64,000 bases of DNA from Chthonomonas calidirosea T49 (lineage in GTDB: Bacteria; Armatimonadota; Chthonomonadetes; Chthonomonadales; Chthonomonadaceae). The stretch lies in contig NC_021487.1 in NCBI RefSeq assembly GCF_000427095.1, positions 3,271,241-3,335,240 of the forward strand, read 5' to 3'. Each line of letters opens with the position of its first letter. Positions within the stretch are counted from its first letter, which is position 1. The notes beneath the pieces are model-generated. The model was not told the DNA's origin and made no database searches. It saw only the letters and a list, made by a program, of their open reading frames with translations. This document shows, one piece after another, positions 3,516-28,406 of the stretch. Made by a program: the position numbers and the translations under genes.

Positions 3516-3674
3516 GCGCGGCTTAAGCAGGAAATTTGCCAAAAACGTTAAATTTTTTGTGAAAGAGAATGGCTCCTCTTGCACCAGCGAGGAGGGGGAG
3601 TCTTTTTATACGCAAAGGGCCAAAAGCTTATAGAGGAGGTTGCGGCTTACAGAGCCGTACAAGAGGATATCACT

Positions 3675-6600
3675 ATGAAACAACACGGCTACTATCGTTT
3701 CCCTACGATACACAACCATCGCGTGGTGTTTGTATCGGAAGACGATTTGTGGAGCGTCTCCACAGAGGGTGGAACTGCCCACCGGTTGACGGCGAATCTC
3801 GCCGCGCTGAGCTTTCCCTGCTTCTCGCCCGACGGCAAGAAATTGGCCTTCACCGGTCGTGAGGAGGGACACAATGAAGTCTATGTGATGGATAGCGAGG
3901 GCGGCCCTCTGCAGCGTTTAACCTATCTTGGTGTCACAAGCACCGTGTTGGGATGGACGCCAGACGGGCAGAAGGTGCTCTTCGCCACCGATAGTGGACG
4001 TCCCTTCGACCGCATCGGCTTTGTTCAGGCGGTTGGACTGGACGGCGGCCTACCGGAGCCGTTTCCGGTGGGACATGCGGTGAGCCTCTCCATCGCGCCG
4101 GACGGGCGAGTGGTGTTGGCACGAAACAATAACGACCCAGCCCGATGGAAGCGCTATCGCGGAGGAACCGCAGGCGACATCTGGATTGACGCCAACGGCG
4201 ACGGCAACTTTCGACGACTTCTGACGTTGGAGGGGAATCTCACCTGCCCGCTGTGGATAGGCGATCGCATCTACTTCCTTTCGGATCATGAGGGGGTAGG
4301 CAACCTCTACTCTTGCACGATCGCCGGCGAGGACTTGCAGCGCCACACCAACCATAAGGATTTTTACGTGCGCTTTCCCAAAACCGATGGATCGCGAATC
4401 GTCTATCAAGCGGGGGCCGATCTCTATGTATACGAGCCGAAAGAGGATCGCTCTCGGAAAATCGCGATTACCTACGCCAGTCCGCGTGTGCAGCGCCAAC
4501 GCAAGTTCGTGGAGATAATGGACTATCTGGAGAGCTATGAGCCGCATCCTAGTAAGGAACAGGTGGCATTAACGGGGCGCGGAAAGAGCTTTACCTTGGG
4601 CTGCTTTGAAGGGCCGGTAACAGCTCAAGAGAACGCTAAGGGGGCGATAAGACTGCGCCTTGCCCGCTGGCTTAACGACGGAGAGCGCGTGGTGGTGGTG
4701 GCGAATGTGGATGGCCGTGAGGTTTTAGAGGTTCATCATACGCTTGATCTGGAACCGGTCAAGCGCTTTGATGCGCTCGATATCGGCCGCCCCTATGAGA
4801 TGATCGTCTCTCCTAAAGAAGATGTGGTTGCCATTGCCAACCATCGTAACGAGCTGCTTTGTGTGCAGCTGGAAGACGGCACGTTGACCCTCTGCGATCG
4901 CAGCGACTATGGGGCGGTGCGCGGCATGGATTGGTCTCCGGACGGCAAGTGGCTTGCCTATGGGCTGCCTATTAGCCCTTACCGCAGCGCGGTTCGGCTT
5001 TGGAATAAAGAGGAGAAGACCATCCACGAGGTCACCGACCCCACGCTAGCAGCCGATAGCAATCCGTCGTTCGACCCAGATGGCAAGTTCCTCTACTTTA
5101 TCAGTGCGCGCGAGTTTACGCCGGTACCGGATTCGCTTCAGTTCGAGCTGAGCTTTCCGATGGGTATGCGCCCCTACTTGGTGACGCTGCAGGCCGATAG
5201 GTTCTCGCCGTTTTGGGAGCCGCTTTCCGAACCTGAAGAGAAAAGGGAAAAGGAAGAGACAAAGGAAGCGGGAGAATCCGCCTCTTCGGAGGCGTCCATG
5301 CCGCTACGTATAGACCTAGAGGGCATTCAAACGCGCGTTATCCCCTTCCCCGTGCCAGAAGGCATTTACGGAACGATTGTCGGCATTACCGGCAAAGTTC
5401 TTTTTCTAAGCTATCCTGTGGTTGGAGAGCAGGTGCCCGATTCGGAAGAGCGAATCGGATCTCTGGAGTGTTACGATTTCAAAACGCTAAAAAAGGAGAC
5501 CCTGTTAGGGGGGGTAAAGAGCTTCCGGCCGTCGCGCGATAGAAAGCGGATTTTGGTGCATACCGGCAAGTCGCTTCGGTTACTGAAGGCGGGCGAGAAG
5601 CCGGATGAGAAGGCAGGAGCGGAACCCGGATGGCAGAGCGGCATTCTTGCCTTAAATCGCGTGAGGTTGGAGGTCGACCCCCCCACAGAGTGGCGCCAGA
5701 TGCTGCGCGAGGCCTGGCAGCTGCAGAAAGAGTTCTTCTGGACGGAAGACCTTTCTGGAGTGGAATGGGACCGTGTTTGGGAGCGCTATGCGCCCCTTGT
5801 GGATCGGGTGGGAACGCGTGGCGAGCTTTCTGACCTCATCTGGGAGATGCAGGGCGAGCTTGGCACATCACACGCTTATGAGTTTGGCGGAGACTACCGT
5901 AAGGGGCCGGAGTATCCCATCGGATTTCTTGGAGCCGACTTTCGTTACGATCCTGAACACGATGCCTATCGCATCGTGCATATCGTACGAGGGACGGCAG
6001 GCGACCCAAAGCGCGACTCGCCCTTACGGGCCAGCGGGGTAAATATTCGTGAGGGCGACCTCCTGATAGCGATTGATGGACAGCGTTTAAGCGCGCAGCT
6101 TCAGCCCAACCAGGCGCTGGTGCATCGAGCCGATAGCGATGTGGTGCTTACGGTGCAGAATACTGATGGCGAGCGGCGCAACGTGCGCGTGCACACGCTG
6201 CGTTCGGAGTTTCCAGCAAGGTATCGAGAGTGGGTCGAGGCCAATCGTCGGCGAGTCCATGAGGCCACGAACGGACGAGTGGGCTATGTGCATATCCCCG
6301 ACATGGGACTGCGGGGCTTTGCGGAGTTTCACCGGCTCTATTTGGTGGAGGTGGAGAGAGACGGGCTGATTGTTGACGTTCGTTTTAACCGGGGAGGTTT
6401 CGTCTCGCAGCTCATCATCGAGAAGCTGGCCCGCAAACGCGTTGGGTATGATCTGCAGCGTTGGGGCGCGCCGGAGCCTTATCCCCAGCACTCGGTTGCT
6501 GGGCCGATAGTAGCGCTCACCAACCAATGGGCCGGTTCAGATGGCGATATTTTTAGCCATGTGTTCAAGCTGATGAAGCTGGGGCCTCTGATCGGAAAGC

Positions 6601-6884
6601 GAACTTGGGGAGGCGTCATCGGTATTTGGCCCCGTATGCCTTTAGCAGACGGCACGATTACCACCCAACCGGAGTTTTCGTTCTGGTTTCAGGATGTGGG
6701 CTGGCGTGTGGAAAACTACGGCACCGATCCCGATATCGAGGTGGATGTTACGCCGCAAGACTATGTGCAGGGCAAAGACCCTCAACTGGAGAAGGGAATC
6801 GAGGTCATCTTGAAGCGTCTTGAGGAATCGCCTCCAATTCGACCCGATTTCAAGGACAAGCCGAAGCTGCCCTTGCCCTCCTGA
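3675..6884 (+). CDS. Tricorn-type protease (S41 family)
   Basis: This 1069-residue protein has the architecture of tricorn protease: two N-terminal beta-propellers (WD40-like DGK repeats, roughly 1-330 and 330-650), a helical C1 region, a PDZ domain (near 740-850) and a C-terminal S41 catalytic domain. Ser732-His733 (TSH) matches the tricorn Ser/His pair, Ser955-Asp956 (AGSDG) the nucleophile, and Glu1013 (VEN) the residue equivalent to E1023. The family is a cytosolic, often self-assembling peptidase acting downstream of the proteasome or Clp proteases. There is no signal peptide. ATG 3675 follows AAGAGGAT; the reading frame is open back to 3579, but that part has no family similarity. A charged Glu/Lys insert lies near residues 520-545. 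Confidence 0.93.
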   Translation: MKQHGYYRFPTIHNHRVVFVSEDDLWSVSTEGGTAHRLTANLAALSFPCFSPDGKKLAFTGREEGHNEVYVMDSEGGPLQRLTYLGVTSTVLGWTPDGQKVLFATDSGRPFDRIGFVQAVGLDGGLPEPFPVGHAVSLSIAPDGRVVLARNNNDPARWKRYRGGTAGDIWIDANGDGNFRRLLTLEGNLTCPLWIGDRIYFLSDHEGVGNLYSCTIAGEDLQRHTNHKDFYVRFPKTDGSRIVYQAGADLYVYEPKEDRSRKIAITYASPRVQRQRKFVEIMDYLESYEPHPSKEQVALTGRGKSFTLGCFEGPVTAQENAKGAIRLRLARWLNDGERVVVVANVDGREVLEVHHTLDLEPVKRFDALDIGRPYEMIVSPKEDVVAIANHRNELLCVQLEDGTLTLCDRSDYGAVRGMDWSPDGKWLAYGLPISPYRSAVRLWNKEEKTIHEVTDPTLAADSNPSFDPDGKFLYFISAREFTPVPDSLQFELSFPMGMRPYLVTLQADRFSPFWEPLSEPEEKREKEETKEAGESASSEASMPLRIDLEGIQTRVIPFPVPEGIYGTIVGITGKVLFLSYPVVGEQVPDSEERIGSLECYDFKTLKKETLLGGVKSFRPSRDRKRILVHTGKSLRLLKAGEKPDEKAGAEPGWQSGILALNRVRLEVDPPTEWRQMLREAWQLQKEFFWTEDLSGVEWDRVWERYAPLVDRVGTRGELSDLIWEMQGELGTSHAYEFGGDYRKGPEYPIGFLGADFRYDPEHDAYRIVHIVRGTAGDPKRDSPLRASGVNIREGDLLIAIDGQRLSAQLQPNQALVHRADSDVVLTVQNTDGERRNVRVHTLRSEFPARYREWVEANRRRVHEATNGRVGYVHIPDMGLRGFAEFHRLYLVEVERDGLIVDVRFNRGGFVSQLIIEKLARKRVGYDLQRWGAPEPYPQHSVAGPIVALTNQWAGSDGDIFSHVFKLMKLGPLIGKRTWGGVIGIWPRMPLADGTITTQPEFSFWFQDVGWRVENYGTDPDIEVDVTPQDYVQGKDPQLEKGIEVILKRLEESPPIRPDFKDKPKLPLPS

Positions 6885-16217: not shown

Positions 16218-19200
16218 TCAGTCGTGTGATTGAAGCAACTTCAACGCATGGTGGCCGGCATCGAGGAGAGCCATCTCTTTGCCTTGAGCGTAGCACTCCT
16301 CCCAATCTGCTTCGGTGTGTCTACGCTTTCTTTGGGTGATGTTCTCGCTCCTTGCCCTCTGTTTGGTTGGGTCAAGAACCAAGCCGGTGGTATCTTGATG
16401 ATGTTCGAGCGCACCCCAGAGTCGAGCGGCCTCGAGATCGTCGTGCGGTGGCAAACAAAGAGCGGCGGTTGCCAACGCTTCGACCAGAAGAATGGCGTTA
16501 GGTGCTAGAGTTAACAAAGTCAACGCTTCTTGTAGAGGCGGAATGACGGCGGTAAACTCTGCTTTGGTGCTGTGCAAGAGTTTTGCTTTTAAGGTGTACA
16601 ACATAGGAAGGAGCGCCCGCTCTTCGGAGCGACATGCCAACTGAATGGCCTCTTCGAGGTAAGCTTGTGCCGCATCCATTTGGGCTTGTTCCAGTGCGAT
16701 AGCGCTAAGTTCATGGAGGGCATAGGCGATGGCACGTGTCTCTTGCGTTTGGCGCGCAAGAGTTAGGCTTTGTTGGCAAAGGGCGTGGGCATCTTCGCAA
16801 TTTTGCTGGAGGCGAGCCAACCTGCCGAGATTAAGTAGGATGAAGGCGATGCCACCCACATCTTCCCATTTTTGAAAATGCTCCAAAGCCTCTTGTTGCA
16901 GCGCGGCAGCTTCCTGGTAATTTCCTAGATATAGCTCCACAATGCCCAGGTTTCCCAAAGCAAAGCCTAGCACCCGATCGCCGAGTTCCCGAAGTTTATG
17001 AGCGCTCTGTTGCAAATAGGTTCTTGCCGCTTGAAGGTCACCTCGTTCTAGCGACACGATGCCCATCATGCCCAACACACCACATGCCCTATCCTGGGTA
17101 CCTATAGAACCATGGACGTCCCAGGCTTGCTGCAGCAACATCCATGCTTTTGTGAGATCTCCGTTTACCCATGCCAGCTGCGCGCATTGACGCAGTGCTG
17201 AAGCGAGATAGGCTTTATTGCCCAGTTGTTCAAAGAGAACACAGCACTCTTCCAAACAGGTACGTGCTGTGGCATAATCTCCTGCGTCGAACGAGAGCCA
17301 ACCAAGTCCGTTAAGTGCCTTTGCATAGGTCAAGTCGCGTTGAGGGTAACAGGCTAGCGCTTTCGATAGCCAGCTACGACCTTCTTTATAGGCACCGCGT
17401 ACCATCCAGTAGAGGGTAAGCGCCTCTGCGAAGATTGCACCTTTCTGCGGTTCCTTTGCAAAACACCAGTCTAAAGCGGCCCGCACATTGGCATCGTTTG
17501 TTTTTAGGTAGGACAACCACTCTCGTCTGTGCAGTTCGCTTTCGCTCTGTTGCCCGGAGAGCACTTTCTGAAAGAAGAAGTGATAATGGAGGTCACACAA
17601 CCTATTTCTTTCCTCATCCCGTAGGTAACGCGCCGCGTACTCTCGAATCACCTCCAGCATTCGATAGCGGGTCTCTCCTTCCTGTTCCACCTCTATAAGC
17701 GAGTTGGTGCGAAGCGTTTCCAATGCCTGCATGGTCTCTAAAAGGCTCTCCCCGTCGAAACAGACCTTACAAGCGGCCTCAGCGTCCCAACCTCCTTGGA
17801 AAACCGATAGGCTCGCAAAAAGCTTTCGTAGGCGTATGGGAAGGAGATGATAACTCGTATCGAGAACCCTTTGAAGGGAACCCTGTCGATCGCCTTTCTC
17901 AAGAGAGGAGGTATCTACCGTCCAGTTGAGACGATGGGTAAATTGGGCTCGCATTTGGGCGGGGGAGAGCATTTGGGCGTGACTACTGACCAGCTCGATC
18001 GCAAGAGGATGTCCCTCGATCCATTGGCAAATCCAGGCCACGTCGTTGCGGTTACGCTCGTTCAAAAGAAATTTACGATTATGGCTTTGCAATCTATCTA
18101 TAAACAGGGCTACGCTAGGGCACTGCAGCAGTTCGTTAAGCCCCATATTTGCGCTAGGAGTAGGCAACGGCTTTAGCCAAAGCTCCCGGTCTCCCCGAAT
18201 GCCGAGCCTCTTTCGAGAGGTCACAAGGCAACACAGATGAGGTAGCCGTTCCAAAAGGTGCTGGATAGTGGCGGCTGCTTCGGGTAGCAGGTGTTCTATG
18301 TTGTCAAGAATCAGTAGACAATCCCCCTTTGCCTCCATAGCCTGAATGAGGTGTTCGAGAGGCTCTTGATGGTGCCCTTGTGAGATATCCAAGGCGTCCA
18401 TAATCTCATCTCCAATGAGGGCTGAGTTGGAGAGACTAGCAAATGGAATAAACCAGACACCCCCACCAAAACAGTCTTGTACCCTTTCGGCTGCTTCAAT
18501 AGCAAGGCGTGTTTTTCCGATGCCGCCTGTTCCAAGAAGGCTGATAAGCCGATACTGATGCGAGCTAGGAACGAGGTGCTGTTGGATCCACTCTAGCTCC
18601 TCTTCTCGTCCAAAAAACCGTGTAAGGCGTGGAGGGATGGATTGTCTTTGCTGAGGAGACTTTGGTACTTCGGTTGCGATTAGAATTGGAAGGACATTCT
18701 GAGCGGTCTGCTTCTTGTTGCCCAGATGCCCGAGTTGTGCTTGGAGTTGCTGTGCGAGCGCTTTTACTTTTGGGGAAGGCGCAGCGCCTAACTCTTGGCG
18801 AAAAAGTGCTTCAAGCTGTTGATAGTGGCGTAGAGCGGTAGAAGGCTGGGCGGTTAGGCTGTAGAGCTGAATAAGCTCGTAGTGGGCCTCTTCGTCCAGA
18901 GGCTCCGCGTAGACGGCTTTTTGGGCGTACTCTATGGCTTGCTGGAAGTCTCTATTCTGCTTTAACAGAGTGGTCAGTTTACGCAGTGTGTGATAGTAAA
19001 CCTCGGAGAGATACTGTCGCTGTGCAAGCACCCACTCCTCCTCATTCCCCGGCAGTAGCTCGCCTTTATAGAGAGCGACCGCCTCTTTTAGAGCGGCGAT
19101 ACATTCTTGCTCGTTCGGAGCATTATCGGCCCATTTGATCTTATAGAGCATATCGAGTACATCGGAGGTAAAGGCATGAGGGTGCAGGCTCACGCTTAGA

Positions 19201-19481
19201 CGGTTGCTCTGCAGAATAAGCCCGCGTTTGGTGCCCGGCGGTTCGAGATGATAACGCAGGGATGTTAGCATGACACGCAGCCGATTTTTTGCGACCTCCG
19301 GCTCCTCTTCCGGCCAGAGGAGCGCAAGAAGTTCTTCGCGGGGAGCGGAGTGGGAGCTATGCAGAATGAGATAGGCTAATAGCGCTCCCATCTTGCGGGT
19401 AGGTAGTCGGAAGTGAGTTTTATTATCTAGATAGGCCCTTAATCCGCCCAATAGCTCGATACGCCAAGCTTGGTTCATCAT
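16218..19481 (-). CDS. BTAD/SARP-type regulator with NB-ARC ATPase and TPR repeats
   Basis: This 1087-residue regulator of the AfsR/SARP architecture has an OmpR-like winged helix (about 5-95), a bacterial transcriptional activation domain (about 95-245), an NB-ARC-type P-loop ATPase with GTGGIGKTR near residue 320, and about ten TPR-like repeats (600-1000). Such proteins are ATP-dependent transcriptional activators that respond to partner binding. ATG 19481 follows GTGAGG at the proper distance; a GTG at 19496 is in frame but contains that site. It lies downstream of, and is separated by a terminator from, the secreted-protein operon, which makes it a candidate regulator of that operon (inference only). 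Confidence 0.88.
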   Translation of the reverse strand: MMNQAWRIELLGGLRAYLDNKTHFRLPTRKMGALLAYLILHSSHSAPREELLALLWPEEEPEVAKNRLRVMLTSLRYHLEPPGTKRGLILQSNRLSVSLHPHAFTSDVLDMLYKIKWADNAPNEQECIAALKEAVALYKGELLPGNEEEWVLAQRQYLSEVYYHTLRKLTTLLKQNRDFQQAIEYAQKAVYAEPLDEEAHYELIQLYSLTAQPSTALRHYQQLEALFRQELGAAPSPKVKALAQQLQAQLGHLGNKKQTAQNVLPILIATEVPKSPQQRQSIPPRLTRFFGREEELEWIQQHLVPSSHQYRLISLLGTGGIGKTRLAIEAAERVQDCFGGGVWFIPFASLSNSALIGDEIMDALDISQGHHQEPLEHLIQAMEAKGDCLLILDNIEHLLPEAAATIQHLLERLPHLCCLVTSRKRLGIRGDRELWLKPLPTPSANMGLNELLQCPSVALFIDRLQSHNRKFLLNERNRNDVAWICQWIEGHPLAIELVSSHAQMLSPAQMRAQFTHRLNWTVDTSSLEKGDRQGSLQRVLDTSYHLLPIRLRKLFASLSVFQGGWDAEAACKVCFDGESLLETMQALETLRTNSLIEVEQEGETRYRMLEVIREYAARYLRDEERNRLCDLHYHFFFQKVLSGQQSESELHRREWLSYLKTNDANVRAALDWCFAKEPQKGAIFAEALTLYWMVRGAYKEGRSWLSKALACYPQRDLTYAKALNGLGWLSFDAGDYATARTCLEECCVLFEQLGNKAYLASALRQCAQLAWVNGDLTKAWMLLQQAWDVHGSIGTQDRACGVLGMMGIVSLERGDLQAARTYLQQSAHKLRELGDRVLGFALGNLGIVELYLGNYQEAAALQQEALEHFQKWEDVGGIAFILLNLGRLARLQQNCEDAHALCQQSLTLARQTQETRAIAYALHELSAIALEQAQMDAAQAYLEEAIQLACRSEERALLPMLYTLKAKLLHSTKAEFTAVIPPLQEALTLLTLAPNAILLVEALATAALCLPPHDDLEAARLWGALEHHQDTTGLVLDPTKQRARSENITQRKRRHTEADWEECYAQGKEMALLDAGHHALKLLQSHD

Positions 19482-19519
19482 CGTTGTTTGCCTCACGACA
19501 ATCTAAAGATCTCTCTAAA

Positions 19520-19626: not shown

Positions 19627-19669
19627 TAAAAAACGCCCTGCTTCGCAGGGCCATACGGCGAAGCAGGGC
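19627..19669 (-). terminator. Rho-independent terminator of the secreted-protein operon
   Basis: A perfect 12-bp stem, GCCCTGCTTCGC (19635-19646) with GCGAAGCAGGGC (19658-19669), has an 11-base loop. On the minus strand it is followed by GTTTTTTAGG. It lies 46 bp past the stop of the GloVer protein gene. An alternative small hairpin CCCTGC-TTC-GCAGGG can form inside it. Confidence 0.9.
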
Positions 19670-19714
19670 AAAGCGAAAGCGTTATGGAGTTTTAGACAAG
19701 AGGGCCTAAGATTC

Positions 19715-21622
19715 TTATGGGATGTTGACTCGGAATGAACTTCCGAAGCTACCTTGTGTGTAGGTGCCCGCGATGCGCAGCAGACCTCTCCCTGAGACCA
19801 CGGAAGCAGGGAAGGTGAGACTGACCGTGACGCTGCTTCCTGAGGGAAGGTTGCCGATGGCTCCTGTTCCGGCAGTGGCCATAACGGTGTTTCTGCTGCT
19901 ATCCGTGAGCTTGGCGGAGGCCAAGTTAAGGTTGCTGACGGGAGCTCCTCCAGTGCTGACAAACGTGAGCTGTACGATCACGTTGTTGCTTTGGTCGCGT
20001 GCGACGGAGGTGAGATGGACTTGAAGTTGGGGCTGCCCTATAAGGAAAATAAGCGGTGAGGTCGTCGCCCCAATGATACCATCGTAGACCTGAACCGTGG
20101 CCGAACCGGGGCTGGCAAGCCAGGAGGCCGGAATGGTAGCTTGGAGTTGCTGAGGGCTGAGCTTTTTTGTTGCAACAAATTGTCCGTTCCATAACACATG
20201 CGAGAAATCCGTAAACCCCGTTCCTTGTAGGGTTAAGGTGAGATCGGAGGAGCCGGCTGGGGCGCTATTGGGGCTAAGGGCTAGCAGCTTTGAACCATAG
20301 CGGAAGACCACACCCGTGCCGTTGCTACCGCCTGAGCCTGTAGTGCCATAGAGTTCACCATCGGGGCCAAGGGTGAGGCCGCCAGCCGGACCACCTCCGT
20401 TATTGGGGTCCTGCCCAAAGTCGAAGGAGTGAATTTCGAAGAGGTACTCTGGGTTGGTGGAAGCGTAGGTAGGTATTGTGTAGAGCACTCCTCCTCCGTT
20501 GGATGATCCTCCATTGATACAGGTGCCATAGATTTGATCACCCTTAAGAACCAGTTGTCCTGATGGAATAGAGGCGATCGGCTGTAGTAAGAACTCTGGA
20601 CCTCCAAATTCGTGAAGCAGCGTGTAGTTGCTTCCGTCAGTCTGTATTTTGAAAAGCACTCCTCCACCGTACGTGCCTCCATCCAGTGTGGTGCCGTAGA
20701 GAGTGCCGGACTGGTCTTGCACGAGATAGGTGTAGGGTTCTGCGCCGCCAGCATTCACATAGGAGTTAGAGGTATAGCCGGGTGCGTTAAAGTTGTGGAT
20801 TACCGTGAAACCGCTGCCATCGGGAAGCAGCTTGTACAGGTCGCCACCCCCATTTGCGCCACTGTCCCGACAAGCACCGTAGAGCGCTCCACCCATGCCT
20901 TGCAGTAGACCTATGGGACTGGCTCCGTCGGTGCCCGAGAAGGTATGGAGAACGGTGAAGGTTCCATCTAACTGCAGTCGAAAGACGACCCCACCTCCAA
21001 AGGCCCCGCCTTCAAGCGCAGTGCCGTAGAGCGCGTGGTCAGCTCCTTGGATAAGACCATAGGGAGCAACACCATCTGCATTGTAGGGGTAAGGCAGAGG
21101 GGTGATAACGATCCAGGCGGCAAAGTTGTGCACCACCTGGAACTGAGTTCCATCTGGGTTTACTCTATAAACGACGCCGGTTCCGTTCGTACCTCCTCCT
21201 GACGCCGTGCCAAACAGCGTGCCATCGGGGAGCTGAATGATGCTAACTGGATAGCCCCCATCGTTCCCTCCGGTGAAGGTATGGAGTACCTGGAAGTTGC
21301 TGCCATCAGAGTCTACGGAAAAAAGGACGCCTGCGCCATCCACTCCTCCAAATGCAGCTGTACCAAAGACCCGTCCGTCAGGCCCTACAACCACTGGGTT
21401 TTGTGGATATGCCCCATCCGCGTTAGAATACATAGAGTCTGACGAAAAGCTATGTAGCACGGCGATGGGCTGAGAAATATAAATAGGAACTGCATTGGGC
21501 CGGAAAGTCTGCCCCCTTCCTATCGTCGGATACGCTAGACCGAGGAGCAGTGCAAAAATGAAGAGAAGCTCTCGGTGCCGCCTGATCGAACCTAAAGGCT
21601 GTAGTGTAGCGTTTTTATGCAT
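19715..21622 (-). CDS. Secreted GloVer-repeat (TIGR03803-type) propeller protein
   Basis: This 635-residue secreted protein has a signal-like N-terminus, then about ten repeats of the form LYGTxxxGGxxGxGVLFK-DGS-xxLHxF (residues 50-440). This is the Gloeobacter/Verrucomicrobia repeat, expected to build a beta-propeller. An IPT/TIG-like domain follows (about 440-525) and a C-terminal beta-rich module (530-635) ending in FRVNIP. That last module resembles the end of the lectin-like protein two genes upstream. ATG 21622 follows AAAGGAGAG. It is the last gene of a three-gene operon. Its function is unknown; the cell surface or exterior is the likely location. Confidence 0.88.
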   Translation of the reverse strand: MHKNATLQPLGSIRRHRELLFIFALLLGLAYPTIGRGQTFRPNAVPIYISQPIAVLHSFSSDSMYSNADGAYPQNPVVVGPDGRVFGTAAFGGVDGAGVLFSVDSDGSNFQVLHTFTGGNDGGYPVSIIQLPDGTLFGTASGGGTNGTGVVYRVNPDGTQFQVVHNFAAWIVITPLPYPYNADGVAPYGLIQGADHALYGTALEGGAFGGGVVFRLQLDGTFTVLHTFSGTDGASPIGLLQGMGGALYGACRDSGANGGGDLYKLLPDGSGFTVIHNFNAPGYTSNSYVNAGGAEPYTYLVQDQSGTLYGTTLDGGTYGGGVLFKIQTDGSNYTLLHEFGGPEFLLQPIASIPSGQLVLKGDQIYGTCINGGSSNGGGVLYTIPTYASTNPEYLFEIHSFDFGQDPNNGGGPAGGLTLGPDGELYGTTGSGGSNGTGVVFRYGSKLLALSPNSAPAGSSDLTLTLQGTGFTDFSHVLWNGQFVATKKLSPQQLQATIPASWLASPGSATVQVYDGIIGATTSPLIFLIGQPQLQVHLTSVARDQSNNVIVQLTFVSTGGAPVSNLNLASAKLTDSSRNTVMATAGTGAIGNLPSGSSVTVSLTFPASVVSGRGLLRIAGTYTQGSFGSSFRVNIP

Positions 21623-21637
21623 TATGGTGCTCTCCTT

Positions 21638-22186
21638 TCAAAGCTCTCGGATGGCCTGTCTTCTGCTTCGGGCGCGATATAGAGATAGGGCTGCGACCAG
21701 CATAAAGAGCAGGGTTAAGCTTGCAAGCGATCCCATCTCCGGGGTTGTGGCCGAGGAGGTGAGAGTCACTTGAAACGGCTCGCTTGCCAAGACGTTTGTA
21801 TCCGAAGCGGTGGCACCCCCCAAAATAGAGTAGGTACCGACGTAGTTTCCGGCAGGTGCGCTCTGCGGATTGGTGGCTGTGAACAGGGCGATCAAGCCGG
21901 TAGTATCTCCTGGGTTAAGAGAGGGGGGGGCGTTGTTGAAGAAGTCGGTGTCATCAAGCGTCCAACCCGTTGCAGCAAACGAGAAGTTGTCGGCGTTTAG
22001 AAAAACGGTAGAGGTTCCGTTGTTGGTTATCGTGCCGATAAAGGTAAAGAGGTTGCTTGTTCCGGCAGGCCCCGATTGAAGAGCGGGGCTAAGCGTCAGG
22101 GAGATTTGGGCCTGCGCTTTTCCAAGCCCACCCCAAATGACCAATAGCAGTACAGTGAGAAGTAGAGGCGATTTCACTGTTTTCAT
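21638..22186 (-). CDS. Secreted protein with PEP-CTERM-like C-terminus
   Basis: This 182-residue protein has a signal peptide (cleavage near AQA), a beta-sandwich body rich in Asn/Thr/Gly, and a C-terminal TPEMGSLASL segment followed by a hydrophobic helix and RARSRR. That layout is the PEP-CTERM sorting signal recognised by exosortase, which cuts and anchors or releases the protein. The motif is a variant (TPE rather than VPEP). ATG 22186 is chosen because the signal peptide starts there and AAAGGAG precedes it; the frame is open to 22231. It is the middle gene of the secreted-protein operon. Confidence 0.75.
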   Translation of the reverse strand: MKTVKSPLLLTVLLLVIWGGLGKAQAQISLTLSPALQSGPAGTSNLFTFIGTITNNGTSTVFLNADNFSFAATGWTLDDTDFFNNAPPSLNPGDTTGLIALFTATNPQSAPAGNYVGTYSILGGATASDTNVLASEPFQVTLTSSATTPEMGSLASLTLLFMLVAALSLYRARSRRQAIREL

Positions 22187-22247
22187 GTTTGTTCTTTCTC
22201 CTTTGATAGTTTTAGAAGACTGGTATTTCACCTAAGTTTGTTTCGTT

Positions 22248-23633
22248 TCATGGCAGCACAACCCGCCAGGACTGTTGAAAAGCTCCTGAGTTTTGATTGC
22301 CGCCTACAGAGAGTCGCACCGTCTTCCCGCTTTGGCCCGCCGAGCTGGGGAAGGTGAAGGTAAAGGAGGTGCTTTGAGCCGAGTTCAGACTCATTGCTGC
22401 GGTGGGAAGAGAGGGAGAGAGAGGAGAACCGGCAGCACCTAACTGCGCCATGGTGAGGGAGACGCCGTTGACGGGTGTCGGGCCAACGTTGGTTACCTGT
22501 ATTGTGACCGAGTAGGTGCCATTAGCATTCTTCTGCAGATTAGCGTAGGAGAGTTGCAGTGCGGAGGCCGTACCGGTAACGAAGACCGAGCTGGCACTCT
22601 GTGTGGTTCCTAAGGTAGGGTTTTGAGCGAGGACATGGAAGTGATAGACCTGATTGGGAATGGTCGGGATCGTGACGGAGTGGTTAATTCCCATTGTTGT
22701 ATCTGAGAAAGAAGGGCCATTTGGTTCCAGAACAACACTGCCAGTGGAGGGTTCATCCGTCGTCCAGGTGATTTGGGCAGAAGTTCCCGTGGCGTTCACG
22801 ATGACAGAGACATTGCCGATGTGAAACAGGGAGGTTCGGTAGTTCCAGCTCAGAATGTCGTGGTTTTCCCATGCGGCTCCTGTGGCGGAGGTTAGACCTA
22901 CCCAAGCCAGTCCGCCCGGTAGACCAAGCGCCTGTTGAAGGTCAACGGGCACAGAGAGAACCTGCACTCCATCTAAGGAGACCGTCATGTTCCCTGGGGC
23001 TCCGGGCAGGTATTTTATCTCGGCGGTATGCACATTTCCATCCGCCATCCGCACCGGAAGGTTAGGATTATCTCCCAGGATCAGGGTGCCATTCTGACCG
23101 TCAGGAGAGTTAGGCCCGATGCCGTGCGTGTGGATGGCGATATGGTTATTGTTGGGATCCGGGGGAACGTACCACCAGTTCCAAAAGGTATCGAACTCTA
23201 CCGCGAGACTATGGGTAATACCCACATATCCGATATCCCCACCATTACCGCCGATTGCTGAGGTGCCCGCCGGGTCATCTTGAATAACGAAGGCGATTCC
23301 ATCGGCACCGGGGGTCACTCCAGGAAACGAACCTAGGTCAGTGATCTGGAACTGGAAGGTGCTGTCGAACCCCCCTTGTACGTAGAGCTGTGCGCTGAAC
23401 CAAGCCGCGCCATCTTGGAAGTCGGTGGCTGGTGTCAGACGCAGCCGATTGTTGAAGAAGCTGGCATCACCCACTAGCGACAAGGTAAACGGGGCATTTG
23501 CCGCCAGGGAGCTACTGCTGAAATCAGGGTAATTGAAGATGGATTCGGTTTGTGCTTGAGCTGAACAGAAGCCGCTCAGCAAAAGCAAAGCTAGCACTAC
23601 CCATGCAAGTGAAGCGATCCGATGGCTTTTCAT
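22248..23633 (-). CDS. Secreted L-type lectin-domain protein
   Basis: This 461-residue secreted protein has a signal peptide (1-28) and an L-type (legume-like) lectin domain at about 32-265, with the hallmarks ADGIAFVIQ, an HSLAVEFDTFWN strand and a DILSWNYR ending. A fibronectin-III-like domain follows (about 270-350), then a C-terminal beta module (355-461) ending in WRVVLP. L-type lectins bind sugars with Ca2+; here the EFDTF and NNNHIAIH stretches fit the metal loop. It is the first gene of the three-gene operon, about 57 bases downstream of the inferred start of transcription. Confidence 0.85.
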   Translation of the reverse strand: MKSHRIASLAWVVLALLLLSGFCSAQAQTESIFNYPDFSSSSLAANAPFTLSLVGDASFFNNRLRLTPATDFQDGAAWFSAQLYVQGGFDSTFQFQITDLGSFPGVTPGADGIAFVIQDDPAGTSAIGGNGGDIGYVGITHSLAVEFDTFWNWWYVPPDPNNNHIAIHTHGIGPNSPDGQNGTLILGDNPNLPVRMADGNVHTAEIKYLPGAPGNMTVSLDGVQVLSVPVDLQQALGLPGGLAWVGLTSATGAAWENHDILSWNYRTSLFHIGNVSVIVNATGTSAQITWTTDEPSTGSVVLEPNGPSFSDTTMGINHSVTIPTIPNQVYHFHVLAQNPTLGTTQSASSVFVTGTASALQLSYANLQKNANGTYSVTIQVTNVGPTPVNGVSLTMAQLGAAGSPLSPSLPTAAMSLNSAQSTSFTFTFPSSAGQSGKTVRLSVGGNQNSGAFQQSWRVVLP

Positions 23634-23696
23634 TCTAAAGCCTCCTTGTTTAGATTTGAGTGTTGTGGAAAGGCTTTTGAAGCCCTTTCAATTCTC

Positions 23697-23741
23697 ACTA
23701 TAACAGGCCATCATTAGCCCATCATTAGCTCGTTCATTAGC
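23697..23741 (-). promoter_or_regulatory. Promoter of the lectin operon with three direct repeats
   Basis: On the minus strand an extended -10 (TGT before TATAGT, 23702-23697) is preceded by three copies of GCTAATG at 23741-23735, 23729-23723 and 23718-23712. The spacings are 12 and 11 bp, and the last copy ends 9 bp before the -10. Helical-phase direct repeats in the -35 position are typical of OmpR/PhoB-type activators. The activator is not identified. Confidence 0.6.
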
Positions 23742-24003: not shown

Positions 24004-25053
24004 ATGAATTTCAGGAGGTACCTGAGACAAGCAGGAAGTGTGGGGTTGTTGCTGCTGATGGTTTCTGGATATGCGCTTGCACAGAGTGTTACCTTGCGAG
24101 GGGCGGGCAGCACCTTTGCAGCGCCGATCTATACGCAGTGGTTTGCAGAGTATAAAAAGGAGACAGGGGTCTCTGTGGACTACCAGGCGGTGGGGTCGGG
24201 TGCCGGAATCAACGCGCTAAAGAATCGTACCGTAGATTTTGGAGCAACGGACGCACCCTTAACCGATTCCGACCTCAAGCAGATGCCTTTTCCCGTGGTG
24301 CAGATTCCCACTTTGGGAGGAGCTGTGGTAATGACCTACAACCTGCCGGGGGTTGGGTCAGGCCTGCGGCTCACCCCAGAGATCATCGCCGATATCTACA
24401 TGGGCAAGATCAAAAAGTGGAACGACCCACGTATCTTGGCCATCAACTTTATTAAGAACCTACCCGATCTGCCTATCCATCCCGTTCACCGCTCCGATGC
24501 TTCGGGAACAACCTATATTTTCACAAGCTTTCTCACGAAAGCCGTTCCCGAATGGGCAAAACAGATAGGCTCGGGAAAGTCGGTGAGCTGGCCGGTTGGA
24601 ATCGGCGGCCAGGGTAATCCTGGAGTAACAGCCAACATTATGCGCACCAAGGGAGGGTTCGGTTATGTGGAGCTAGCTTATGCCATCCAGAACCATCTGC
24701 CGCTAGCCTCCGTGCGGAATGCTGCCGGGAACTTCGTTACCCCCAGCGTTACCACCACCAACATCGCTATTGGACAGTATATCGGCGCTCTGAAAAAGGA
24801 CATTCGCACTCCCACCGTCTATGCTCCCGGCGTCAATAGCTATCCCATATGCGGGCTGACCTATGTGCTGATCTACCAGCACGGGGGAAGCAATCCAGGA
24901 CCGGTAACTAAGCTGTTCAGTTGGGCGATGGGCGAGAAAGCTCAGGAAATGGGAGAGAAGCTTTACTATGCTCCTCTACCACCCTCCTTAATAAAGCTGA
25001 ATTTGGCGGCCCTTAAAACCGTGCAAGGTGCCCAAGTGGCGATAGGGCCTTAA
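24004..25053 (+). CDS. pstS: Phosphate ABC transporter, substrate-binding protein
   Basis: This 349-residue periplasmic phosphate-binding protein has a signal peptide (1-27, ending ALAQS). Conserved ligand segments are GAGSTFAAPIY (residues 31-41), a YQAVGSGAGI loop, DFGATDAPL and HRSDASGTTYIFT. The ATG at 24004 follows GAAAGGAT. It is the first gene of the pst operon, 14 bp before the fused permease gene, and lies behind the Pho-box-like promoter. Confidence 0.96.
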   Translation: MNFRRYLRQAGSVGLLLLMVSGYALAQSVTLRGAGSTFAAPIYTQWFAEYKKETGVSVDYQAVGSGAGINALKNRTVDFGATDAPLTDSDLKQMPFPVVQIPTLGGAVVMTYNLPGVGSGLRLTPEIIADIYMGKIKKWNDPRILAINFIKNLPDLPIHPVHRSDASGTTYIFTSFLTKAVPEWAKQIGSGKSVSWPVGIGGQGNPGVTANIMRTKGGFGYVELAYAIQNHLPLASVRNAAGNFVTPSVTTTNIAIGQYIGALKKDIRTPTVYAPGVNSYPICGLTYVLIYQHGGSNPGPVTKLFSWAMGEKAQEMGEKLYYAPLPPSLIKLNLAALKTVQGAQVAIGP

Positions 25054-25066
25054 TAACTCAGGAACG

Positions 25067-27142
25067 ATGGCGCAAATTTCATTGGCAAAAGAACCTCTTC
25101 CGAAGCCGCGTGGGCTAGGTGAACGGAGGATTTGGGCCTTTCTTGTCGATCGTCTTTTCCGCGGAACCGCCCTGCTTTTCGCCCTATCAACGGTTGTGAT
25201 TATTCTAGGCATTGCCCTCTCGCTGGTGCTTGCCTCCCAACAAAACTTTCACCACTCCGGGCTTCGCTTTTTCTTGGGCGATCGGTGGATACCCAACCCA
25301 CCTACGGCAGAAAAGCCCATTGGAAACGTTTTCGGCGTGCTGCCCTTCGTGTACGGCACGTTTGTGACCTCGGCTCTAGCGCTGCTTTTGGCTGTGCCTA
25401 TAGGGGTTGGCAGCGCCATCTTCTTGGCGGAGCTGGCACCGCATCGGGTCAACAAGACGCTCTCCTTCTTCATCGAGATGCTTGCTGCGGTGCCCAGCAT
25501 TGTGTACGGCTACTGGGGCCTGCTCTATCTCGTTCCCATTTTACAAAACCGCGTAGAGGTATGGCTGAACTCTCATTTCGGCAGCATCCCCTTTTTCGCT
25601 TCTTACTACGATACGGGCACCGGCATGGATTTTCTTGCAGCCGGTGTTGTGCTCTCTCTTATGATTCTGCCCTACGTCACGGCGGTATCACGTGATGTGC
25701 TGATGGCCGTTCCACGGGTACAGCGAGAGGCCGCCTATGGTCTTGGTGCCACACCGTGGGAGGCCACGAAGCAGGTGGTTTTGCGCTACGCAAGCAGCGG
25801 GATCATCGGGGCCGTTATGTTGGCGTTAGGTCGGGCCTTGGGGGAAACTATGGCGGTGACCATGGTCATTGGCGCTAAAGTGACCATAGCCCATTTAAAA
25901 GACCCCGCGAGCTTTTCCCTCTTACGCTCCGGCTATACGATGACCTCTGTGCTGGTCGATCAGTATAACGGACCTAACTCTCCCTTGCACGCGAGCGCTC
26001 TCACCGAGATCGCGCTGACGCTGTTTCTCATTACCATTGTCGTGAATGGAGTGGCTCGCTTGCTCGTTTGGCTTACGGCGAGCGGAGGTGGGGGATCGCG
26101 CCGCACGGTAGCGTTACGTGGTCATCTAATGGGCTTCCTACGTATCTTGCTTAGCCTGTTAGTGGCCGTGGTACTGCTTTATCAGATCGCGCATGATCTG
26201 CGATCGCAGGGCTTGCAAGGGCTTTTCGGTCCGGCGGAGTTGCTCGCGATATCTCTCCTGCTCCTTTGGGGCATTAACCGATGGGCGCCCCATACGCGCT
26301 TTTTCCAGATATGGCGACGCATCGGCAGTATCGGCGGTAATGTCGCCTGTTTTCTGTGTGCGCTGCTGGGGGCTACAGCGCTTGTTTGGCTTTTCCAGTA
26401 TGTATTTCGAGCTGGCGTTCCCGCCCTGAACGCGCAGTTTTTCCGCCTTCCAAACCCGGCAAATCCGGAGGCGGGAGGCATGTTGCATGCCATTGTAGGC
26501 ACGGGTATTTTAGTGGCGATGGCCTCGGCCGTGGGCATACCTGTGGGTATTTTAGGCGGCATCTATCTGTCGGAGTTTGGCAAAGGCCGATTGGGCTTCT
26601 GGATTCGGTTTTTTACAGATCTCCTTAACGGCGTGCCTTCCATCGTTGTTGGCATCTTCGTCTATAATATTCTGGTGGTTCCGACTCACGAAAACTTTGG
26701 ATATGCCGGCGGCATTGCTTTGGGCATTTTGATGATCCCAACCGTAATGCGCACAACGGAAGAGCTACTAAAAGTGGTGCCTGTCTCTTTACGGGAAGCC
26801 TCACTTGCCCTTGGGGCCACCTATGCCCGAACGGTATGGAAGGTGGTGCTGCCAGCTGCCCGCGGAGGCATTCTCACCGGCATTCTCTTGGCAGTGGCTC
26901 GTGTGGCTGGGGAGACGGCCCCGCTGCTCATCGTGCTCTGTAGCATTAACCTATGGTCGGTGAACCCACAAAAGCCTTTACCTTCTCTACCGGTGCAGAT
27001 ATATCTCCTGAGAAACGATAACGACCCTGTGGCGCTTTCACAAGCATGGGGCGCAGCTTTGGTGCTTGTGCTCCTCGTTATCGTGACGAGCTTGCTAGCG
27101 CGCATCGTCTCCGCACGCGGAGAGATGCGAGCGATAAACTAA
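25067..27142 (+). CDS. Fused phosphate permease PstC-PstA
   Basis: This single 691-residue protein carries both permease subunits of the phosphate ABC transporter. Residues about 30-335 are PstC-like and 420-690 PstA-like, joined by a stretch holding two additional hydrophobic segments (about 350-420). Each half has its own EAA coupling loop (EAAYGLGATPWEATKQV and EASLALGATYARTVWKV), which would contact the two PstB copies. PstC and PstA are normally separate proteins of about 300 residues each. There is no stop or frameshift between the halves. ATG 25067 follows AGGA. Confidence 0.93.
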   Translation: MAQISLAKEPLPKPRGLGERRIWAFLVDRLFRGTALLFALSTVVIILGIALSLVLASQQNFHHSGLRFFLGDRWIPNPPTAEKPIGNVFGVLPFVYGTFVTSALALLLAVPIGVGSAIFLAELAPHRVNKTLSFFIEMLAAVPSIVYGYWGLLYLVPILQNRVEVWLNSHFGSIPFFASYYDTGTGMDFLAAGVVLSLMILPYVTAVSRDVLMAVPRVQREAAYGLGATPWEATKQVVLRYASSGIIGAVMLALGRALGETMAVTMVIGAKVTIAHLKDPASFSLLRSGYTMTSVLVDQYNGPNSPLHASALTEIALTLFLITIVVNGVARLLVWLTASGGGGSRRTVALRGHLMGFLRILLSLLVAVVLLYQIAHDLRSQGLQGLFGPAELLAISLLLLWGINRWAPHTRFFQIWRRIGSIGGNVACFLCALLGATALVWLFQYVFRAGVPALNAQFFRLPNPANPEAGGMLHAIVGTGILVAMASAVGIPVGILGGIYLSEFGKGRLGFWIRFFTDLLNGVPSIVVGIFVYNILVVPTHENFGYAGGIALGILMIPTVMRTTEELLKVVPVSLREASLALGATYARTVWKVVLPAARGGILTGILLAVARVAGETAPLLIVLCSINLWSVNPQKPLPSLPVQIYLLRNDNDPVALSQAWGAALVLVLLVIVTSLLARIVSARGEMRAIN

Positions 27143-27170
27143 ACTTTTGAAAAGGAATGAACGATCGAAT

Positions 27171-27554
27171 ATGCGACAGAGAGCTTATGGATTGTTGGGG
27201 ATTGTCGGCTTGGCCGTGGCGCTGAGCGGCTGCTCTGCTAAGACGCCATCAGAAGGCACTAGTTCCGGCCAGGGGACGTTGAACAACGCCAGCAAGGATG
27301 CTCAGATCGAGGCCGATGTGAAGGCGGCACTTGCAGCCGATCCGGCGTTGAAGGGCGAGAAAATCACTGTCTCTGTTAAGGATGCCCAAGTAAGCTTGGA
27401 TGGTACGGTAAAATCTATTGCGGCACATGATGAGGCCGAGAAGGATGTAGACCAGGTAGTTCAAAAGTACGCTAGCGTTAATGCAGGAGTGATCAACAAC
27501 CTTTTGGTGGCAAGTGACCGCACGGCCATTTCCCAAAACGGGGAAGGGCGCTAG
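27171..27554 (+). CDS. BON-domain lipoprotein in the pst operon
   Basis: This 127-residue lipoprotein has a signal peptide with lipobox LSGC, a short Ser/Gly/Thr linker and one BON domain (about 45-115, core VSVKDAQVSLDGTVKS). BON domains bind phospholipid or cell-envelope surfaces. It sits between the permease and pstB genes with short gaps, so it is transcribed with phosphate uptake, although it is not a known transporter part. The start is ATG 27171; a TTG at 27147 is in frame but has no ribosome-binding site. Confidence 0.82.
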   Translation: MRQRAYGLLGIVGLAVALSGCSAKTPSEGTSSGQGTLNNASKDAQIEADVKAALAADPALKGEKITVSVKDAQVSLDGTVKSIAAHDEAEKDVDQVVQKYASVNAGVINNLLVASDRTAISQNGEGR

Positions 27555-27575
27555 TTGCGAGGAGGGAATCCTCTG

Positions 27576-28406
27576 ATGGAAACAACGGAACGCGGGGTGC
27601 CGCTCTCTTTGGAAGAGAGCGTGGTTGCTGGAGCCTCGAACGGGAAGAAAGAGGTTGTTCGCATCTCGGTGCGGCATCTTGACTTCTTTTACGGAAAGTT
27701 TCAAGCGCTACACGATATCAATCTCGACATTTTGCGTAATCAGGTAACCGCCCTTATAGGCCCTTCGGGGTGTGGGAAATCTACGTTTCTTCGCACCCTA
27801 AACCGAATGAACGACATCATTCCAGGTGCCCGCTTAAGCGGTCAGGTGTTGCTAGATGGAGAGGATATCTACGATAAGGGCGTGGATGTCATTGCGCTGC
27901 GGCGGCGTGTTGGCATGGTGTTTCAGAAGCCAAACCCTTTTCGGATGTCAATTCGAGAAAACGTAGAGTACGGGCCGCGCCTGCACGGTATTCGAGATAA
28001 GAAACGCCTTGCCGAAATTGTGGAACGCTCGCTGAAACAGGCTGCCTTGTGGGATGAGGTGAAGGATAACCTCAATAAGTCGGCGGAAGAGCTTTCGGGA
28101 GGCCAGCAGCAACGGCTCTGTATTGCGCGTACACTGGCGGTAGACCCGGAGGTTATTCTTATGGATGAACCCTGCTCCGCGCTCGATCCGGCCTCCACTT
28201 ATCGTATTGAGCAGCTTATGGACGAAATGCGCGCGAACTACACGATTGTTATTGTAACACACAATATGCAACAAGCGGCCCGTGTTTCACAACGCACGGC
28301 CTTCTTCTTAAAAGGGGAACTTATTGAGGTGGGAAATACAGAGGATATCTTCTCTCGACCACGCGACAAGCGCACGGAAGATTACATTCAAGGCCGATTC
28401 GGATAA
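27576..28406 (+). CDS. pstB: Phosphate ABC transporter ATPase
   Basis: This 276-residue ATPase energises phosphate import. It has Walker [10 protein letters not shown] (62-70), a Q-loop VFQKPNPF, the signature LSGGQQQR, Walker B VILMDEP and the switch His in THNMQQ. An N-terminal extension of about 28 residues precedes the ATPase core. ATG 27576 follows GAGGAGGG. It is the last pst gene here, and no phoU follows. Confidence 0.96.

Follow-up and report, generated by a model that had tools for sequence, protein, structure and literature searches.

The predicted operon analysed here resembles, in different respects, several described systems. In the PEP-CTERM/exosortase system (Haft et al. 2006, PMC1569441), substrates carry a PE motif, a hydrophobic stretch and a basic end, and in Proteobacteria they are accompanied by a dedicated regulatory system (PrsK/PrsR/sigma-54). 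The flocculation protein PepA (NF033554; PMC9850573) is a small PEP-CTERM protein that is linked to retention of exopolysaccharide on cells and is under sigma-54 control. In Gram-positive bacteria, csc/WxL clusters (Siezen et al. 2006, PMC1534035) are operons encoding only secreted proteins, in which large cargos with a common C-terminal domain, some of them ConA/legume-lectin-like, are found with a very small sortase-anchored protein, and a surface complex of the products has been proposed. Large SARP regulators such as AfsR have the domain order DNA-binding, BTAD, NB-ARC, TPR and are reported to bind direct heptamer repeats near promoters, classically with an 11-bp period; those reviewed govern secondary metabolism in Streptomyces (PMC10972967, PMC5930380). 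Our locus consists of three adjoining genes, for a lectin, a small PEP-CTERM-family protein and a GloVer-repeat protein; a gene for a SARP-type regulator lies nearby. It lies in a stretch of 64,000 nucleotides, here called the window (positions 3271241-3335240 of contig G000:C1), of the hot-soil bacterium Chthonomonas calidirosea T49, whose genome is a single contig of 3,437,861 bp.

Comparison with other Armatimonadota shows that the conserved unit, as judged from predicted proteins, is a cargo tipped with a shared C-terminal domain (CTD) and accompanied by a small PEP-CTERM-family protein, the cargo itself changing from locus to locus. In the window, the last ~105 residues of the lectin (22248..22565, minus strand, as for all features of the operon and its regulator) and of the GloVer protein (19715..20032) are homologous (32% identity, BLASTP E 1e-5); a profile also identifies the GloVer copy, and the same domain terminates two further GloVer proteins of the T49 genome. 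The first-pass annotation had described three proteins of very different fold; the lectin and GloVer proteins turn out to have this domain in common. Neither cargo has a membrane tail. An AlphaFold2 (AF2) model from the two window CTD sequences is confident (pLDDT 86.8), all-beta and Ig-like, forming a beta-sandwich, and no curated family in the Pfam and NCBIfam libraries reaches its cut-off on the domain. In a comparison with the PDB the model resembled Ig-like folds in general; the best Z (11.8) belongs to a WxLIP domain but is equalled by many unrelated Ig-like folds, and among the matches listed the comparison assigned the CTD to no family. The results point to a shared C-terminal domain family absent from Pfam and NCBIfam.

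Profiles for the CTD and the small PEP family were each run over 291 Armatimonadota genomes. The lectin/PEP/GloVer trio, which had been put forward as a module in itself, was not found elsewhere among them in that exact form; what relatives keep instead is the pair of CTD cargo and small PEP-CTERM-family protein. Twelve CTD matches lie ≤1 kb from a same-strand PEP-family match, whereas ~0.02 would be expected by chance. Because some members of the CTD profile had been chosen beside PEP genes, the test was repeated with a CTD model built from T49 only, which gave seven matches among the 158 open reading frames (ORFs) of loci fetched for their PEP gene alone; all seven fell in the PEP gene's immediate neighbour or in the gene after that. 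The N-terminal parts of cargos beside the PEP family vary widely (Vps10/BNR, NHL, kelch, SBBP, TIG and Big_7), and the CTD sits at the extreme C-terminus of these variable cargos, frequently ending in (L/I/V)P. Lectin homologues in two genomes (G038 and G136) lack the CTD and end in a PEP-CTERM tail of their own, which is our main argument that the CTD and its partner replace the tail. The recurrent pairing suggests an undescribed way of keeping proteins at the cell surface, one by which tail-less secreted proteins could be retained there, and together with the shared CTD and the PEP family it supports the earlier idea of a surface or matrix module.

Two unusual reading frames involve the same components. 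A 101-residue ORF (L079 8347-8652, G044:C111) consists of the CTD only and overlaps the stop of a PEP gene; either the gene is truncated or the CTD is made as a free protein. A 902-residue frame (L160 6586-9294, G048:C71) combines a complete PEP-family protein with a signal-peptide-like stretch, a cargo of BNR-like type and a weak CTD. We draw no evidence of interaction from this apparent fusion, L160_6, since the internal second signal-peptide-like stretch suggests two in-frame genes.

Within the predicted operon, which spans 19.6-23.7 kb of the window, the genes run head to tail from lectin to small protein to GloVer protein, with gaps of 61 and 15 bp. A ribosome site of the AGGAG type precedes each start, and by inspection the three proteins each have a signal-peptide-like N-terminus. 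A GC-rich stem with a T-run at 19628..19669 (-27.9 kcal/mol, z -2.66) forms a predicted intrinsic terminator. Coordinates, N-termini and this fold bear out the first-pass description of three adjoining secreted-protein genes closed by a strong terminator. So tight an operon stands out, because many functionally related genes of C. calidirosea are reported to be dispersed rather than in operons (PMC4959169).

The lectin protein (461 residues, 22248..23633) has a signal peptide, an L-type (legume) lectin domain, an Fn3-like domain and the CTD. The lectin domain (residues 49-259, 22857..23489) passes the cut-offs of PF18483 (E 1.7e-29, 103.7 bits vs 78.3) and PF00139 (E 5.4e-21, 75.7 bits vs 26.3) and matches PDB lectins (E 5.4e-13), with the E-x-D...N...H and ADG motifs aligned. 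Its sugar site looks intact, because the E-x-D, N and H residues and the Asp of ADG, which we take to be the metal/sugar-site residues, line up with those of solved legume lectins (pea lectin and 7elv). A single-sequence AF2 model of the full lectin was poor (pLDDT 43.9) and hence not interpreted. By eye, lectin homologues at four loci of other Armatimonadota (L049, L055, L058 and L059) terminate in repeats of dockerin-like type, a third mode of C-terminal attachment. The secreted GloVer protein (635 residues, 19715..21622) matches TIGR03803 in seven stretches (E 1.9e-82, 270.8 bits vs a cut-off of 44) and contains a CoaZ (IPT/TIG-like) repeat domain (20045..20287; NF058597, E 7e-22). The GloVer family takes its name from variable C-terminal anchors ('choice of anchor'); here the C-terminus is instead the CTD, which no library model covers. 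A related-locus search with the GloVer protein returned one Aequorivita locus only.

The small secreted Ig-like protein (182 residues, 21638..22186) probably starts at the ATG at 22186, which is favoured over the listed GTG at 22231 because AGGAG precedes it. Its tail (21638..21745) has TPEMGS, a hydrophobic stretch and RARSRR, a variant of the PEP-CTERM pattern in which the third motif residue is M instead of P. We assign the protein to the PEP-CTERM family because of its homologues, its own tail failing the models; the earlier label 'PEP-CTERM-like' thus holds for the family and not for the tail as scored. The family has three copies in the T49 genome, and relatives occur in nine further genomes of Armatimonadota; several of these relatives end in canonical tails, for example VPEPGTLSLLGLGLGGVVMAARRRRR. 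Tested relatives from four loci (L080, L083, L162 and L165) pass TIGR02595, which is also over cut-off at the position of one paralogue in T49; PEP-CTERM scans of the T49 genome yielded two paralogues and one short ORF. A related-locus search with the small protein as query found no relative, and the alignment of its family proved too variable for such a search. An exosortase was to be looked for elsewhere in the genome, and T49 has a single one (PF09721, E 1e-55), adjoining EpsI, with TIGR02602 (exosortase) and TIGR02914 (EpsI) both over cut-off. Exosortases are common in the phylum (240/291 genomes).

Beyond the terminator, on the same strand, lies the gene for a large SARP/AfsR-like regulator (16218..19496) whose DNA-binding, BTAD, NB-ARC and TPR parts all pass their Pfam cut-offs (PF03704 3.2e-18, PF00931 5.1e-07, PF00486 1e-06 and TPR_12 1.1e-24). 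As AfsR itself it scores 103 bits, far below the equivalog cut-off of 1430 (NF053617). Comparison of gene neighbourhoods shows a link between predicted large SARPs and CTD/PEP genes. Large SARP genes adjoin such genes at G046:C574, G044:C166 and G044:C588 (the CTD gene in the last case) and stand one gene away at G008:C4; in four f19 genomes (G180, G181, G183 and G184) the order is SARP, CTD cargo, PEP, and that SARP is the sole strong BTAD match in each. SARP-type regulators are much expanded in the 7.4-Mb genome G044 (36 BTAD matches), and by eye some of them have C-terminal ends that are not TPR-like. At 13 of 28 large SARPs examined in G044 the immediate neighbour is a PEP-CTERM gene, as against 3 of 116 distant ORFs.

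A distinct promoter had been noted before the lectin gene. A scan of this region for consensus sigma-70 promoters found none; in its place, at 23741-23697, a tandem repeat precedes TATAGT, and we regard this element (23697..23741) as a SARP-box-like predicted operator and promoter. It reads GCTAATGAACGA GCTAATGATGG GCTAATGATGG CCTGT TATAGT. The GCTAATGA direct repeats within it are spaced 12 and 11 bp, the final two copies form the perfect 11-bp tandem, and 8 bp separate the last GCTAATGA from TATAGT. Such a run was attained in 3 of 20000 shuffles, and the exact pattern occurs once in the window and once in the whole T49 genome. Comparable elements occur in relatives: the SARP-cargo gap of the f19 genomes has, at lag 11, repeats of the TTGTAACG type and then CATACT or TAGACT; G044:C166 has TGGTAACG repeats at lag 12 and then GATACT. 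Exact heptamer repeats in intergenic DNA close to SARP genes are most frequent at lags 11 (n=10) and 12 (n=14), other lags counting 1-4 after deduplication (Poisson P 2.5e-5 against distant intergenic DNA). The regions in this test were selected by distance to SARP genes and not by repeats; the test itself was drawn up once the repeat was already familiar from the window and a few relatives, whose loci are included. The recurrence of SARP genes as neighbours, together with the predicted operator, makes it probable that the BTAD regulator controls the operon, as had been proposed, and the SARP may bind the window repeats. As a marker of a wider regulon the exact GCTAATGA operator was rejected, since the genome contains it in exact form just once. 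A GloVer-CTD gene elsewhere in T49 (L092 6558-9599, G000:C1 ~1.90 Mb) is preceded by TTTCACG-ATAA-TTTCACG, 9 bp and TAGAAT, which is SARP-box-like although no SARP gene adjoins.

We propose, with a probability of about 0.5, that the trio is a SARP-switched operon whose CTD cargos are held at the surface or in the matrix through their exosortase-sorted partner. The SARP, switched in response to a signal by its NB-ARC/TPR part, would activate the operon, most likely by binding the direct repeats immediately before the -10 element, as the comparative link suggests. All three proteins would be exported by Sec. The genome's single exosortase would probably process the small protein, linking it to the envelope or to exopolysaccharide, and the CTDs would most likely dock the cargos on this small partner. 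Held in this way, the lectin and GloVer proteins could bind glycans or matrix, with a role in exopolysaccharide or sugar binding and aggregation. Extended to other loci, the proposal is more tentative and, we judge, a little short of an even bet: surface anchoring in trans, in which many different cargos would share an Ig-like C-terminal address domain and dock through it on a small partner sorted by the exosortase, with dedicated large SARPs as switches. Such a system would be a diderm equivalent of csc/WxL clusters.

Several observations weigh against this proposal. Most compared CTD matches (48/60) have no PEP-family match within 1 kb, and in T49 itself two paralogues of the small protein stand without a CTD gene and two CTD GloVer proteins without a PEP gene, so the pairing is not obligatory. 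The window's own small protein gives no match to the PEP-CTERM profiles (TIGR02595 / PF07589) at E<=1. An adjoining SARP gene is lacking at several CTD/PEP loci, and no PEP-CTERM neighbours were seen around the SARPs tested in G008 and G034. The G044 counts depend on a home-made rule for detecting PEP-CTERM, and the 13 of 28 includes one contig twice and two loci picked for their PEP/CTD genes; without these the association persists (Fisher P 2e-4). Solitary CTD and PEP-family proteins would also be expected if the small PEP-CTERM protein were itself the matrix protein, as floc PepA is, with CTD proteins encoded nearby under shared regulation but binding sugars or matrix on their own, and with the CTD serving only as a spacer or stabilizing Ig domain. 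The CTD fold is indeed a common beta-sandwich, and a relative of the small protein weakly matches PepA (NF033554, E 8.8e-11, below cut-off). A generic spacer leaves unexplained, however, why one CTD family appears on unrelated cargos beside one PEP family, and why two CTD-less lectin homologues have a PEP-CTERM tail of their own. We regard this explanation as quite possible, if improbable on balance.

The position of the CTD at the very end of variable cargos, often with a final (L/I/V)P, would suit a secretion or sorting signal for an unknown machine, comparable to the C-terminal Ig domain of type IX cargos, in which case the PEP protein would be a separate exosortase substrate. No type IX sorting-domain profile in Pfam or NCBIfam matches the CTD (the type IX machinery was not searched for), and adjacency to the PEP family would be left without explanation; we consider this unlikely. 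The lack of the exact trio in relatives would fit a further alternative, in which the three secreted-protein genes form an ordinary cluster and a regulator gene merely happens to lie close by. This is very improbable, since CTD/PEP pairs and SARP adjacency recur far above chance, the SARP-box-like predicted operator is unique in the genome, and the tight operon stands out in a species many of whose functionally related genes are reported to be dispersed (PMC4959169).

The locus departs from each of its closest counterparts. Unlike in the classical PEP-CTERM system, the cargos are tail-less and have a CTD in common, the one tail is a TPEM variant and the neighbouring regulator is a large SARP. 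The csc/WxL clusters use a sortase, whereas the window system would rely on an exosortase; no Pfam match to the WxL domain, DUF916 or the small LPXTG protein was found in the three trio proteins, and the likeness is one of analogy, homology not being shown. The large SARP stands beside a surface-protein operon in Armatimonadota rather than a secondary-metabolism locus in Streptomyces, with another repeat sequence, and PepA is matched by some relatives only, and weakly (L080 best). Novelty was judged against open-licence literature and the profile libraries; for Armatimonadota and PEP-CTERM, that literature turned up one paper, by its title on LuxI/LuxR homologues. The association of CTD, PEP family and SARP bears on what exosortase substrates do and on their control outside Proteobacteria. 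For large SARPs, known mainly from antibiotic clusters, it would add a role in surface-protein control, with predicted operators.

Elsewhere in the window, a phosphate-type ABC operon (24004-28406, plus strand) encodes both permease domains in one 691-residue protein (two BPD_transp_1 stretches) and has a BON-domain lipoprotein-like gene between those for the permease and the ATPase. A Tricorn-type protease gene lies at 3579-6884, also on the plus strand.

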